Part shown: one piece after another, positions 46,419 through 55,139 of the stretch
How the letters are laid out: each line of letters begins with the position of its first letter
How positions within the stretch are numbered: position 1 is the first letter of the stretch
The notes under the pieces: model-generated
Told to the model about the DNA's origin: nothing
The model's database searches: none
Seen by the model: only the letters and a program-made list of their open reading frames with translations
Program-made: the position numbers and the translations under genes
Assembly: GCA_030429585.1 (NCBI GenBank)
Contig: JAUIEU010000001.1
Span: forward strand, 553,994-617,993
Reading direction: 5' to 3'
Length of the DNA: 64,000 bases
Source of the DNA: a bacterium
GTDB lineage: Bacteria; Cyanobacteriota; Vampirovibrionia; Vampirovibrionales; Vampirovibrionaceae

Positions 46419-46698
46419 GGCGGTGTGAGGAATAACCGGGTTGGTGTTAGTGGGTGCCCTGCCGGTATAGGCGGGGGCAATTATTACCGTTTAGGGGGCT
46501 TTATAAGGTCAACATCATGGCTGTTAGCAAATGTTCAAATCGCCAGCCCTGATGCGTTTATCTCACCGTGCGTGTCTACCATCGTGGTATTCCATCAAGT
46601 GTTCTCTTAATAACGTTCTTCCACTTGTTAAATTGCTTGTTAATGGTGCCTTTTATTAAGGTTTATAACCATTTTCCGGTAAATCCACTTTGATAGCC

Positions 46699-47829
46699 AT
46701 GACAGTGCGACATTCACAGCCCCAATCACCCCCATTTAAGGCCATATTTGCACAATGGCCAGCCCCGGCTGTGGCAACGAGTGATAAAAATCACTATGAA
46801 GGGCCTGAGATATATTTTAATGATAAGCCCTTATCTGAAGAGGTGGTGGTGCACCAAAACCCGCTACAGCAAATAGGGCATGGCGTTAAACAGGTGTTTG
46901 TAGAGCTACCCAAAGCCGTATGGCGTGGCCTGCAAGGCACGCCAGAGTATACCTTTGGGGATTTTTTGTTGATTGGTAAAGTGCCGTACTACTTGGGTGG
47001 GGCCACCCTGGCTGCTATTTTTGCCATGGGCCGCCACGGGCTTACATTGGCCCGGCAAGGGCCGGCTATTGCCATGTATTACTTAGCCATTGGCCTAAGT
47101 AATATGCTGATTAACCAATCGGTTAAATCCAATACAGGGTTGGATTTAGGCCTAAAATATAAAAATGCACTCGGTAAACTGAAGCCGGTGTATGGCGATG
47201 CCACCTTCTCTCGGTATGATTTGGTGCCTAAGGCCACGTACCAGCATATGGCCAAAAAAATGGGTATTCCGCTAAGCGTGGCAGACCCGGATGATGAAGT
47301 GCAATCGGTTATTGCGGATATGTTGCCCCGCATCCGCTTAGCCAAAATGGTGCTAGGGAATACCTTAGCCGCAGTGGCGGCGGGTTACCTGGCCAGAACA
47401 GACGAATGGCACCGTGTGTTTACCACCATACCAGGGGTGCTATGGCACAAAAAGCCAGCCAAGCGTTTAGGCATCCTATTAAAGGATTCTGCCAAGGTTA
47501 TTGCCCACCAGTTTGGTGGCGTTAAGCGGGCCGCTGGCATGGGGTTACCCCCTAAGCAATTTGCTGTGGTTAAGCACGTGGCGATGGGCTTTATAGCGGC
47601 AGCAGTAATTACCACCTGGCGTTTATTACGCCCCCCTGTGGATAATAAGGCATACCAACATTCAGAACGTATTGGGGATGTAAAACCGCCCTTGGCTCAA
47701 CATTCTGGTAATCTCTCTCGGGCACAACTGTTGTGGGAGACGGATCAACAACGAGAATTCGCTCGTCACGGGCGCGATGTGGCCACACTCCAGCAATCTA
47801 GGTATAGAGCAGCAGGAGGGACGCAATGA
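46699..47829 (+). CDS. Hypothetical membrane protein, paralogous to the N-terminal module of the downstream GH13 protein
   Basis: Several hydrophobic segments; INQSVKSNTGLDLGLKYKNALGK resembles VHWWVKQKTGVDLEHNYLSTQGD downstream. Confidence 0.75.
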   Translation: MTVRHSQPQSPPFKAIFAQWPAPAVATSDKNHYEGPEIYFNDKPLSEEVVVHQNPLQQIGHGVKQVFVELPKAVWRGLQGTPEYTFGDFLLIGKVPYYLGGATLAAIFAMGRHGLTLARQGPAIAMYYLAIGLSNMLINQSVKSNTGLDLGLKYKNALGKLKPVYGDATFSRYDLVPKATYQHMAKKMGIPLSVADPDDEVQSVIADMLPRIRLAKMVLGNTLAAVAAGYLARTDEWHRVFTTIPGVLWHKKPAKRLGILLKDSAKVIAHQFGGVKRAAGMGLPPKQFAVVKHVAMGFIAAAVITTWRLLRPPVDNKAYQHSERIGDVKPPLAQHSGNLSRAQLLWETDQQREFARHGRDVATLQQSRYRAAGGTQ

Positions 47830-50800
47830 CCACCCTGCCTGTAACACCACCTATCACCTCAACAATACCTAAGCCAGAAAAGGCCCACTTTATTACACAC
47901 CCAATGGCCAAGGGCCCAAAGCGCCCCATGCCTGCCATACATCCTCAGCATGCTTTTCTGTGGGGTTCACCGGCTGTTCAGGGGTATTTAGCCGCAAAAG
48001 GCACTAATCCAGAGCAGCCTTATAAAAGCGTGGTGAATGATCTCTTTTCTCCGGATACCCGTGTGAATGCCCATGAATTAGGGACGCTTGAATTTGAATC
48101 CAAGCTAACCTCTGGTGGGGTTATTGCCCTGCTAGGTAGCTTAAGTAGCACTAACTTTGCCTTGGCCACTAAAGAGATATTGGGGTTTGCTGGCTTTTAT
48201 GGCTCCATGGGGATATTGCCCCACATTGTGCACTGGTGGGTAAAACAAAAAACCGGGGTAGATTTAGAACATAATTATCTAAGCACCCAAGGGGATAAGC
48301 GCAATTTATTTACCGACCCCCAATACTTGCCGCTACAATTGCTACCCAACCAAGAGATTGATGCCATTGGTAATAAGTTGGATGTACCGAAGCATTTGAG
48401 TAACCGGCGCCGGGTAATCGAAGATAAAATTAGAAGCACTGTAGCCCAGGCGCAAACGTGGTGGATGATAACTGCAGGCCCCTTAGTGCCTATTATTGGT
48501 AGTGGCTTAGTGCGGGTAGTAGAACCCCTTTTCTTAAAGTTATCTAATAAAGCACAACAGGTTTTTTGGCAGTCTAAGGTATACCGAAACCCGGATCATC
48601 CGAAGTATGTGAAACGCTTTGACCATTTATTAGCCACGGTGGTGGGTAGTTCGCCTAATACGGAACTATCCCGTTGGTGGACAACACTGCAAAAAGATGT
48701 GGTGAAGGAACTGGATATTCCTAAGGCGTTGGAGGCCCTGCCACGACGAGAACGCCAACACCAAAGCTGGTGGCACCGTGTGATGAAAACCCATATTCGT
48801 CGCCTAAGTGCTGCTCATGTGCATGGCCGCTCACCTGCCATTCAAAAACGGTTGCAAAAACTAAAAAACCGCTTAGATAGCACCTATCTATCTAAAATCA
48901 CAGAGATGGAAGGCAAGCTAAATACATGGGCCACCCGTGCCCCCCATAAAACATTGCGCTCTCATCATGTACAGGCGTTAAATGCGGCTAAAAATATGTT
49001 GCGCCAGTACAAACAATTGCTCACCGTGTTGCAACGCCCAGATGTGTTCCCTACCGATGCGACGATCCATACGTTGCTGCAAGGGGGTACCACTACTAAC
49101 ATTACCCGCCTGTTAGAAAACGGCCAATACAATACAGCCAAAACTGTGTTAGGCAGCCAAGGCAATTTAATAGAAGCGATTGGTGCCAGCCACAGCCGCC
49201 AGGGCCAGCGCCTTAACAGCCTAATGGGGGCAACTATTGCAGATCAACTAACCAAGGGCGCCAAAGAGGTGATTAACTCACGCCACTTTAATCGCTGGCT
49301 GGTAGGTGGTGTGGGCGGCGGTATTGCGTTAGCAAGTGCTATTTTTTATCAGTTGGTACTTAGTAAAACTTCTCGCCGCCGTAAGGAGGGCTCTGCTAGT
49401 AGCACGGAAATTTTAAATAAGTATAACGCCACCCATGCCTTTGAACGATTGCAAGCGACTATTGCGGCCCAAAAAACCCTTAAAACCACCTTGCCGCTCC
49501 GTAACACCACCCTAGAAAAACCGGGCTACTTAAAACAACTGTTTAAGCAAAGCCAAGCGGTTATTTATGCCTTAAACTTGCGTACTTTTGGCGCCACGGA
49601 TGCCAACCATGATGGGGTCATACAGCCGCAGGCGAACGAGCATGGCACTTTCTTATCTGCCATTAATCGGCTGGATGAACTACAATCCATGGGGGTCAAT
49701 ACCATCCACTTATTGCCTATTAACCCAGTAGGCACTATTAAACAAAAAGGCACGGGGGGCAGTGTGTATGCAGTGGCGGATTACCATACCCTAAACCCGC
49801 AGCTTAAGGATAACACCAGCCCACTTAATATTTACCAGCAAGCCCGCCAGTTTATACAGGCCGCCCACCAGCGGGGCATACAGGTAATGGTGGATGTACC
49901 CAGTGTGGCGGCTTATGATTTAGCCATTACTCGCCCGGATCTTATTTCGGTTGATGGCCATGGCCATACCTTAACCCCAGCGGACTGGGAAGATGTGGTG
50001 TTGTTTAAAAACGACAAAAACCTACAGGATTACTACGAAGGCTTTTTTGACTTGATGGCCAACGATGTGGGGGTAGATGGCTTCCGCGTGGATGTGGCGC
50101 GTTCTCGGCCAAATTGGTTTTGGCAGCATTTTATTGGCAAGTACCCCAACCATGCTTGGATGGCAGAAAGCTATGTGGAAGAAGATGCCTCGCCACTCCA
50201 AAACATCCCTAGGGATGTGCCGGAAACCTTATTAGGCTTAGGCTTTGACAGTGTGTACGGGCAAAATCATATCTTCCCTAAAATAAAAAGTGGCCAAGCC
50301 TATATGGATTACCTGCTTGAGATTGAAGGTATGTTTAAGCGGGCGAACCTGGCTAATGGCAACCCGCCAGTGGCACAAGGCAAATCGGTTATTGGGTCCT
50401 TCCTTACCCATGATGATAATGAAACCTTGATGGACCATGGTGGGATTGCCTTTAATAAATTCTGTTTAGCGCTTATGGCGTTTCAGCCCTATACCAACCC
50501 ATACCTGATTGATGGCATGCAAAGCGGCTACCCCCACCGCATTAATATTTTTGATTACGCGCCAGCACACAAAGGCAGTTACCCCGGTACCGCTGGCTTT
50601 ATTCAGCAGGTGTTTAATACTCGTGCCCAGTATGCCGATGTGTTGGCCAACGGCCAATTTACCCCCCACGTTATTACCAAAGACCCCCACCATCAGTTGT
50701 TTGCCTACAGCTTAAGCCATAATGGTAAAACGTTATTGGTGGTGGGTAATAAAGACGTGAACGCACGATCCACAGGGCATATTGAACTGGCCTTACCTAG

Positions 50801-50918
50801 CCAGGCGCCGCTGGTAAACCTAATACCGGAATATGGCCGCCAAAGTAGCGTACATGCCCAGCCGGACAAACTCCATGTAAGCATGGGGCCTGCGCGATTA
50901 ATGGTGTTTGAAATTTAG
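47826..50918 (+). CDS. Fusion of N-terminal membrane/helical module with C-terminal GH13 alpha-amylase-family domain
   Basis: 1030 aa; VIYALNLRTFG, GVNTIHLLPINPVG, GIQVMVDVPSVAAYD (region I), VDGFRVDVAR (region II nucleophile), AWMAESYVEE (region III acid), FLTHDDNETL (region IV). Confidence 0.9.
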   Translation: MTTLPVTPPITSTIPKPEKAHFITHPMAKGPKRPMPAIHPQHAFLWGSPAVQGYLAAKGTNPEQPYKSVVNDLFSPDTRVNAHELGTLEFESKLTSGGVIALLGSLSSTNFALATKEILGFAGFYGSMGILPHIVHWWVKQKTGVDLEHNYLSTQGDKRNLFTDPQYLPLQLLPNQEIDAIGNKLDVPKHLSNRRRVIEDKIRSTVAQAQTWWMITAGPLVPIIGSGLVRVVEPLFLKLSNKAQQVFWQSKVYRNPDHPKYVKRFDHLLATVVGSSPNTELSRWWTTLQKDVVKELDIPKALEALPRRERQHQSWWHRVMKTHIRRLSAAHVHGRSPAIQKRLQKLKNRLDSTYLSKITEMEGKLNTWATRAPHKTLRSHHVQALNAAKNMLRQYKQLLTVLQRPDVFPTDATIHTLLQGGTTTNITRLLENGQYNTAKTVLGSQGNLIEAIGASHSRQGQRLNSLMGATIADQLTKGAKEVINSRHFNRWLVGGVGGGIALASAIFYQLVLSKTSRRRKEGSASSTEILNKYNATHAFERLQATIAAQKTLKTTLPLRNTTLEKPGYLKQLFKQSQAVIYALNLRTFGATDANHDGVIQPQANEHGTFLSAINRLDELQSMGVNTIHLLPINPVGTIKQKGTGGSVYAVADYHTLNPQLKDNTSPLNIYQQARQFIQAAHQRGIQVMVDVPSVAAYDLAITRPDLISVDGHGHTLTPADWEDVVLFKNDKNLQDYYEGFFDLMANDVGVDGFRVDVARSRPNWFWQHFIGKYPNHAWMAESYVEEDASPLQNIPRDVPETLLGLGFDSVYGQNHIFPKIKSGQAYMDYLLEIEGMFKRANLANGNPPVAQGKSVIGSFLTHDDNETLMDHGGIAFNKFCLALMAFQPYTNPYLIDGMQSGYPHRINIFDYAPAHKGSYPGTAGFIQQVFNTRAQYADVLANGQFTPHVITKDPHHQLFAYSLSHNGKTLLVVGNKDVNARSTGHIELALPSQAPLVNLIPEYGRQSSVHAQPDKLHVSMGPARLMVFEI

Positions 50919-53071: not shown

Positions 53072-53629
53072 TTAAGCCGTTTCTGTTTCTGTGTCGTCAT
53101 CCGTATCACCATCGCCGTCGGTAGTGGTGGTTTTGTCTGTATCAGTGCTAGCCACTACTTCATCATCATCGTCATCGTTATCATCATCTGCGGCGGGGTC
53201 TTTATCTTTAGCCTCGGCCTGCTTTTTAAGCATGGCTAAAACCTGTTCCAGGCCAATGGCGTTTGGATCGCCTTCTTGTTCTGCTTTGCCTGAATCGCTT
53301 TTTTTCTTATCCGATGATTTTTTATCGTCGTCTTCTTTCTCAGTTTCCGCCGTAGGCGTGTTGGCATAAGGGTTGGTTTGGTTATCATTACTGGTTGATG
53401 ATGTGCCGCCCATGGGTGCGTCAAAGCCAATTCCTAAATCCATACCGGCCATAAATTTGTAAAAATCGTCGGCAGCTTCATCTATCCTTTGAAACTTCAT
53501 TTGCTGTCCAGCTTCAATGGCTTGACGAATCGCTCTTAAATCTTTGGTTTCGCCACTTTTTGCCGCTTCTGCTTCTTTATATAAAAAAGTTTGAACGTAT
53601 TGTTGAAGGTTTATCATTACCTTATTCAC
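53072..53629 (-). CDS. Hypothetical acidic low-complexity protein
   Basis: 185 aa; ordered N-terminal ~70 aa, then KEDDDKKSSDKKKSD and PAADDDNDDDDDEVVASTDTDKTTTTDGDGDTDDDTETETA. Confidence 0.7.
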   Translation of the reverse strand: MNKVMINLQQYVQTFLYKEAEAAKSGETKDLRAIRQAIEAGQQMKFQRIDEAADDFYKFMAGMDLGIGFDAPMGGTSSTSNDNQTNPYANTPTAETEKEDDDKKSSDKKKSDSGKAEQEGDPNAIGLEQVLAMLKKQAEAKDKDPAADDDNDDDDDEVVASTDTDKTTTTDGDGDTDDDTETETA

Positions 53630-53834: not shown

Positions 53835-54872
53835 CTAGTAGCCGCCGCCATAACTGTAGGTTGGCTGGGTATAGCCGTAACTAGGTTGGGTATACGAGGT
53901 GTTGTTGTTATACCAATTGTTGTTTTGGTTATTGGTATTGTAGTTATCCGTATACTGGTTGTTATTGGTGTACTGATTATTGTAGGTATTGTAATCGTAC
54001 GCATTGTTGTTGGTTGTGTACTGTTGGTTATTCCACGTGTTGTTCATGGTGTTGGTTGTATTGTACGTGGGCATATTATACGAGTTGTAACTGTTGTAAT
54101 CGTACTGATTGTTGGTTGTGTACTGATTATAGTTATTCGTCGAGTAATAGTTATCCGTTTGTTGGGTTGGGTACACATTGGTTATGTTGTAATTGTAGTT
54201 GTACACGGTAGATGTTGGGGGGGGCTCGTAGTAGCAATCATATCCGCCACCGGCTTGGCCATAAGCATCGTAGCCACCACCACAGGAACCACCCATATCA
54301 TAGCCGCCACCGTAAGGGTCGCAACACCCGCCACCGTAGTAATCTTGGCTAGGGTAATAACTGTTGCCGCAACACCCATAGGGGTCATAGCCGTACGGAT
54401 CGTACCCATAAGGGTCGTAGCCTCCGTAGCCACCGCCATAGGGGTCATAGCCGTAGGGGTCGTACCCATAAGGGTCATAGCCCCAGGGGTCCATTTGCCC
54501 TTGGTTGCCCACATCATCCCAATTCCAATCATTCCAAGGGTCTGTGCCGCTATCCGGTGGGTCTTCCACTGGGTCTACCACTGGGTCGGGCTCAATAACA
54601 GGGTCGGGGGTTATCACATCCGGGTTCGTATCCAAATAGTCATCTAAACCGGCGCTTAAATCCCTAAACGTTGATCGTTTTATATTATATTGGGTCTGTA
54701 GGGCCTTTCTAATTTCCTCAGCAGGAGTATCTGTATCTAGCAAATCCAGATAATCACTGTAGAAATTATCAATTTCCGTTTGCGATAGCTCGCTTATATC
54801 GCGGCCATCATGATTTCTTTTTTCATCGTTGTTTCTGCCCCAATTCCAGGGCATTATATCCCAAAAACTCAT
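53835..54872 (-). CDS. Prion-like low-complexity protein with (DPYGY)n repeats and N/Y-rich C-terminus
   Basis: MSFWDIMPWNWGRNNDEK... WGYDPYGYDPYGYDPYGGGYGGYDPYGYDPYGYDPYGCC... NYNQYTTNNQYDYNSYNSYN. ATG 54872 preferred over 54896. Confidence 0.75.
   Translation of the reverse strand: MSFWDIMPWNWGRNNDEKRNHDGRDISELSQTEIDNFYSDYLDLLDTDTPAEEIRKALQTQYNIKRSTFRDLSAGLDDYLDTNPDVITPDPVIEPDPVVDPVEDPPDSGTDPWNDWNWDDVGNQGQMDPWGYDPYGYDPYGYDPYGGGYGGYDPYGYDPYGYDPYGCCGNSYYPSQDYYGGGCCDPYGGGYDMGGSCGGGYDAYGQAGGGYDCYYEPPPTSTVYNYNYNITNVYPTQQTDNYYSTNNYNQYTTNNQYDYNSYNSYNMPTYNTTNTMNNTWNNQQYTTNNNAYDYNTYNNQYTNNNQYTDNYNTNNQNNNWYNNNTSYTQPSYGYTQPTYSYGGGY
54376..54492 (-). repeat. 15-nt tandem coding repeats encoding DPYGY units
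   Basis: Repeated CATAgGGGTCgTACCC / CATAGCCGTAnGGgTC units on the + strand, in frame with the minus-strand ORF. Confidence 0.8.
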
Positions 54873-55139
54873 GTTGTTTATCCTCCACACAGGCAACCAC
54901 TACCGGTCTCATCGGTATTTGTTGCTATATTGTCTCCACACAGTAGAACTAAATAAGCTCTGAAATAATAAAAACAATCTATAAGTGATTATTGCCCAGT
55001 TTTTAGGGTTTTCTCTAAAATTAAATCTATTAATACTATTTTTTATATAGATAAGATATTAAAGCTGTTGCAGAGTGTTAAGCCACCACCGGTTTTGTTA
55101 TGGTGTTGTTGTAGACCCTTCTTGTGAAAGAGATACCCC

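Follow-up and report, generated by a model that had tools for sequence, protein, structure and literature searches.

What does a bacterium do with a glycoside hydrolase of family GH13 that continues, in one uninterrupted reading frame, from some 500 residues of hydrophobic and helical sequence? The question is raised by a gene encoding a protein of 1030 aa in a 64,000-nucleotide stretch of DNA (hereafter the window) from a member of the Vampirovibrionaceae (assembly GCA_030429585.1, contig JAUIEU010000001.1, positions 553,994 to 617,993). The class Vampirovibrionia comprises close non-photosynthetic relatives of cyanobacteria that are common in animal guts, include algae-preying bacteria and are almost entirely uncultured. 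We designate the N-terminal module of the fused protein B, and the gene directly upstream A (Table 1).

Table 1. Positions in the window of the features discussed in the text, and locus coordinates of a second GH13 paralogue from relatives; residue numbers (aa) refer to the fused protein.
Feature	Position	Strand	Remarks
Divergent giant GH13-like gene, 1355 aa	42351..46418	-	Keeps Asp..Asn (region I), Asp (II) and Glu (III)
Gene A, 379 aa, paralogue of B	46690..47829	+	TTG at 46690 opens the ORF; ATG at 46699
Fused gene B-GH13	47826..50918	+	ORF of 1030 aa, ATG start, uninterrupted
Membrane module B, aa 1-512	47826..49361	+	Free-standing gene in most relatives; profile matches in 290/382 class genomes
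Weak hydrophobic helical hairpin of B, aa 88-135	48087..48230	+	Segments 88-106 and 117-135; helices 90-107 and 111-143
Hydrophobic segment of B, aa 211-229	48456..48512	+	Inside long helix 194-254 (AlphaFold2); hydropathy 1.36
Predicted C-terminal transmembrane helix of B, aa 494-512	49305..49361	+	Hydropathy 1.62; followed by basic tail, K+R 0.29
Linker B to GH13, aa 513-566	49362..49523	+	Central motif similar in fused clade (vs L038, L039)
GH13 catalytic domain, aa 567-1030	49524..50915	+	Pfam PF00128; solved relatives 4gkl, 3dhu, 1gju, GlgE
GH13 region I, DVPSVAAYD, aa 690-698	49893..49919	+	Asp690 kept, Asn-His missing
GH13 region II, GFRVDVAR, aa 752-759	50079..50102	+	Predicted nucleophile Asp756; 89/89 kept
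GH13 region III, MAESY, aa 779-783	50160..50174	+	Predicted acid/base Glu781; 89/89 kept
GH13 region IV, THDDNE, aa 861-866	50406..50423	+	His862-Asp863; 87/89 kept
Second GH13 paralogue, signal-peptide-like N-terminus	L035:1414-2961; L036:1411-2958		Catalytic residues kept

The C-terminal domain belongs to GH13, as it scores 27.4 bits against the Pfam family PF00128 (cut-off 22) and the profile of its family retrieves solved GH13 enzymes from the PDB sequences with a best E of 3e-35. A preliminary description, made from the letters of the window, had claimed the four GH13 regions, and all of them proved to be in place; the broken active site that it had named as a sign against its reading was not seen, since the catalytic Asp, Glu and Asp of regions II, III and IV are present in 89, 89 and 87, respectively, of the 89 GH13 sequences compared. 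By homology, the domain is predicted to be an intact enzyme of the retaining type, in which Asp756 acts as the nucleophile and Glu781 as the acid/base, and family membership together with the conserved catalytic residues points to alpha-glucan activity. Region I is of a particular type: its Asp is invariant (89/89), the positions of Asn and His are mostly occupied by Cys and Ala, and the usual Asp-x-x-x-Asn-His is missing. The Asn-His pair is usual in GH13, not universal, and membership in the family stands because the accepted members GlgE and 1gju also lack it.

Comparison with these enzymes gives a lead as to the reaction. The best-scoring PDB matches are the bacterial alpha-amylases 4gkl and 3dhu (E 3e-35 and 5e-31) which, unlike the window enzyme, have the Asn of region I in place, as part of a pair that is Asn-His or similar to it, and whose solved chains have no membrane module. 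The maltosyltransferase of Thermotoga maritima (1gju; E 1e-28) shares a region I without Asn-His and a long N-terminal stretch of the barrel, although it has its own insertion between regions I and II and its solved chain contains neither an A nor a B module. GlgE (e.g. 3zss, 4u2y), also without Asn-His, aligns from region I to beyond region IV with E ~1e-18; however, the alignment begins at its residue ~230-250, the N-terminal part of GlgE having no counterpart in the window enzyme, and NCBIfam gives the window domain no GlgE call, as its matches, every one far below the cut-off, include no GlgE-specific model. Only as a lead, the type of region I leans towards a glucan-transferring enzyme and, because it resembles that of maltosyltransferases, transfer appears at least as likely as hydrolysis.

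The N-terminal half had been reported as impossible to assign, and this still holds. Neither Pfam nor NCBIfam has a family that matches the first ~560 residues, the PDB sequences contain no relative, and Foldseek searches with the AlphaFold2 model of B (pLDDT 83, pTM 0.73) gave no credible match in the PDB or in a viral-fold library; neither approach turned up a module known to be attached to GH13 domains. For A and B, no Pfam-A family was matched at the gathering score, the only hits being two stray single-member ones to unrelated families, and the best Foldseek values were E 0.1 to 0.5, with TM-scores under 0.2. Averaged over 50 homologues, segments 88-106, 117-135, 211-229 and 494-512 of B have mean Kyte-Doolittle values of 1.02, 1.11, 1.36 and 1.62, respectively. 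The hydrophobic stretches of the preliminary description are thus located correctly, but they differ in quality: the last two, including the TM-like segment noted ahead of the catalytic domain, are convincing candidates for membrane segments, whereas the first two are weak and may form a hairpin or a re-entrant structure. The model is mostly helical, and helices 194-254 and 337-369, among others, bear out the helical stalk recognised earlier. Hydrophobic segments and gene arrangement recur in independent genomes and are, therefore, more than chance.

Searches of whole genomes indicated that B and GH13 are usually encoded separately, because the matches found in 27 of 58 relatives consisted, in most carriers of the cassette, of two pieces in adjacent frames, corresponding to residues 80-515 and 567-1030. 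Their flanking regions contain a constant cassette of three genes, with A of 340-500 aa, B of 500-880 aa and a GH13 gene of 530-630 aa. For comparison we used 80 named loci, kept from 393 stretches of genome contigs matching an alignment query (a scan of the contigs with a single-protein query gave no match), plus ten loci of a first set, eight of which duplicate named ones. Carriers among the named loci are Vampirovibrionales, including V. chlorellavorus NCIMB 11383, and Gastranaerophilales. Gene A adjoins B in every one of the 72 loci that allowed both to be counted, with a gap of -40 to +30 bases, and B adjoins the GH13 gene in 77 of 78, commonly with overlaps of 4 or 8 bases; the lone exception, L130 from Candidatus Caenarcanum, has these genes arranged as GH13-A-B. 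In the loci compared, genes for glycogen or maltose metabolism were not consistently found beside the cassette.

The distribution of B is wide within the class. Its profile matches 290 of 382 genomes of Vampirovibrionia, in 49 of 97 genera, and nearly all Gastranaerophilales; several families of the class are without it, including family f3 of the same order as the window, and no B from outside the class was among the matches listed for a sample of the phylum (292 genomes). The arrangement, at first called unusual, is accordingly standard across the class, even though we found no description of the cassette in the libraries searched or in the passages located in papers on the class. The proposed search for GH13 proteins with a similar N-terminus did recover a clade of fused proteins; nevertheless, B is mostly a separate neighbouring gene, so it is not a GH13 accessory domain. 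To judge from these comparisons, A-B-GH13 is a widespread lineage-specific operon in which a known enzyme family is combined with a new membrane-protein family. Its presence in ca. 85% (270/319) of the high-quality genomes makes it a candidate core function of the class, composed of two proteins without known fold and an intact enzyme.

Gene A, which the preliminary description had left out of account in its reading of the fused protein, is a part of the system. Its stop overlaps the start of B by 4 bases, and profile-profile comparison with hhalign relates both proteins with a probability of 98.4 and E 7e-15 over 195 columns; phmmer also links them, weakly. The AlphaFold2 model of A (pLDDT 80, pTM 0.70) has the same order of elements as that of B, i.e. 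a hydrophobic hairpin, a beta hairpin, a short helix, a long helix carrying hydrophobic segment three and, last, a hydrophobic helix at the C-terminus. On profile and model evidence, A and B are paralogues, and no further copy of B besides A was found in the genome of the window. Neither the PDB sequences nor, by Foldseek, the PDB folds contained a credible relative of A; nuclear receptors and BAR domains appeared in Foldseek with E above 0.4, which we took as chance. With weak first two hydrophobic segments and long helices dominating both models, A and B could also be envisaged as peripheral or monotopic proteins with a role in shaping or decorating the membrane or a granule of glucan, and GH13 as a passenger. 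We consider this very unlikely, because 74 of 81 B proteins and 70 of 79 A proteins have a convincing transmembrane helix as their C-terminal segment, and because the conserved operon and the fusion to GH13 speak against a mere passenger.

As a single protein, B plus GH13 was found only in the window and in two relatives, genomes G002 (contig 26) and G003 (loci L038 and L039), and it is split in all other relatives examined. Given that the parts are two genes in most relatives, the fusion might be an artefact of assembly, or of a frameshift joining both genes. This is extremely improbable, and the independent fused genomes refute it: three of them carry the fusion, their proteins form one clade (support 99/96) and are comparable in the linker, and G002 contains a split cassette in addition to the fused one. 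For the same reasons, the fusion is real and most simply derives from a single event. It offers a direct hint as to the proteins that act together, and provides a single-chain version that can be cloned.

The side of the membrane on which the enzyme works can be approached from the split proteins. None of 83 split GH13s has a hydrophobic N-terminus or a membrane segment (maximum 15-residue mean 1.38, none above 1.8), and a signal peptide like that of secreted alpha-amylases was not found in them by simple hydropathy, used here in place of SignalP. The lack is meaningful because Gastranaerophilales possess a secreted-type GH13 paralogue of 515 aa, with the same type of region I, that does have a clear hydrophobic N-terminus. 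Additionally, no segment of B is as basic as the tail that follows its last helix (29% Lys/Arg). Taken together, the split proteins, the secreted paralogue and the basic tail suggest that GH13 is most likely cytoplasmic and held at the inner membrane by the C-terminal helix of B. Basic residues are also frequent in the turn that connects the first two hydrophobic segments (27% Lys/Arg), and this agrees badly with four simple crossings that leave the C-terminus inside; with this turn and the weakness of both segments, positive-inside analysis does not fix how often A and B cross the membrane. The membrane-tethered alpha-glucan enzyme proposed at the outset is thereby upheld as to an intact GH13 beside a largely helical membrane module, its activity being deduced, and the side, which had been left open, is now most likely the cytoplasmic one.

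It is unlikely, in our opinion, that GH13 resides in the periplasm or outside the cell and digests external starch or glycogen, e.g. algal starch during predation. V. chlorellavorus is indeed a predator of Chlorella with many glycoside hydrolases (PMC4451040), the several hydrophobic segments of B make an outside C-terminus possible, and the secreted paralogue shows that the family is able to act outside. However, an outside location agrees poorly with split enzymes devoid of signal peptide and transmembrane segment and with a strongly basic tail ahead of GH13, as well as with a cassette that is nearly universal in gut Gastranaerophilales, which already have the secreted paralogue.

GH13 domains that are attached to a membrane and form pairs with a second membrane protein are known from the rBAT and 4F2hc heavy chains (SLC3), which partner transporters (PMC8537225). 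This precedent of a membrane-held GH13 with a non-enzymatic role, and the constant pairing with two membrane proteins, would fit a structural or chaperone subunit without catalytic function, a possibility that we regard as quite unlikely. The heavy chains have a single transmembrane segment, are extracellular and do not maintain the catalytic residues, the triad being not fully conserved in rBAT orthologues (PMC8537225); in contrast, the window protein has a multi-helix module, is probably cytosolic and maintains these residues, and no comparable loss was found among the 89 GH13s compared, with 87-89 of them keeping each residue. Moreover, neither in sequence nor in fold do A and B show a resemblance to transporters.

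We therefore favour, with moderate confidence, a Vampirovibrionia-specific, membrane-bound alpha-glucan hydrolase or transglycosylase complex that faces the cytosol and is built on a scaffold of paralogous proteins. The helical membrane proteins A and B would probably form this scaffold together, and B would end in a transmembrane helix with its basic tail in the cytoplasm. In the genome of the window this tail would continue directly into the GH13 enzyme, whereas in most relatives a separate soluble GH13, from the next and usually overlapping gene, would presumably dock on A/B. The enzyme would then act on 1,4-linked glucan chains at the membrane's inner face, by cleavage and/or transfer. More tentatively, as a possibility to which we give less than even weight, A-B-GH13 could be a glucan machine of the membrane that has so far escaped description and has a novel membrane-protein fold, a trait common to Vampirovibrionales and Gastranaerophilales that serves, for instance, in making, remodelling or anchoring alpha-glucan at the inner membrane.

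The genome of the window contains GlgB, GlgX and MalQ, plus a weak match to glucan phosphorylase, which indicates that alpha-glucan handling is present. A GT5 glycogen synthase gave no match in this genome, which weighs against the favoured reading, since a route to the glucan on which the cassette enzyme would act is not evident. Of the 58 relatives, 52 have GT5 matches, whether or not they carry the cassette, and glycogen synthase was rejected as an explanation for the presence of the cassette, being independent of it and missing from the genome of the window. No TreS-like gene was recognised among the four GH13 genes of this genome, and the classical maltose-1-phosphate route is consequently not evident. 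Papers on Melainabacteria and on the class deal, in the passages located, with the use of amylase, starch and glycogen in general terms and not with the cassette. Separately, large hydrophobic proteins of no known family are encoded near GlgB and GlgX genes (L064:1988-3178, L064:8448-9560 and L065:11970-13961); they were not accepted as relatives of A or B, as their best match at full sensitivity had E 0.002 and 9 bits.

Upstream of A, and on the opposite strand, the window contains a divergent giant GH13-like gene whose product has regions I and II some 470 residues apart. This gene is kept beside the cassette in several Vampirovibrionales and in a few Gastranaerophilales (L110, L111, L117 and L119), so that an association with the locus is probable. 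Three unannotated human-faecal phage records, all named 'Bacteriophage sp.' (MT837269.1, MT836044.1 and MT836018.1), encode a stretch with 25-35% identity to residues ~604-783 of the GH13 domain. Finally, positions 53835-54896 of the window (minus strand) encode a protein of 353 aa that has YDPYG-type repeats and a very high content of Tyr, Asn, Gly and Pro, and which is adjoined by an acidic low-complexity protein (53072-53629, minus strand).
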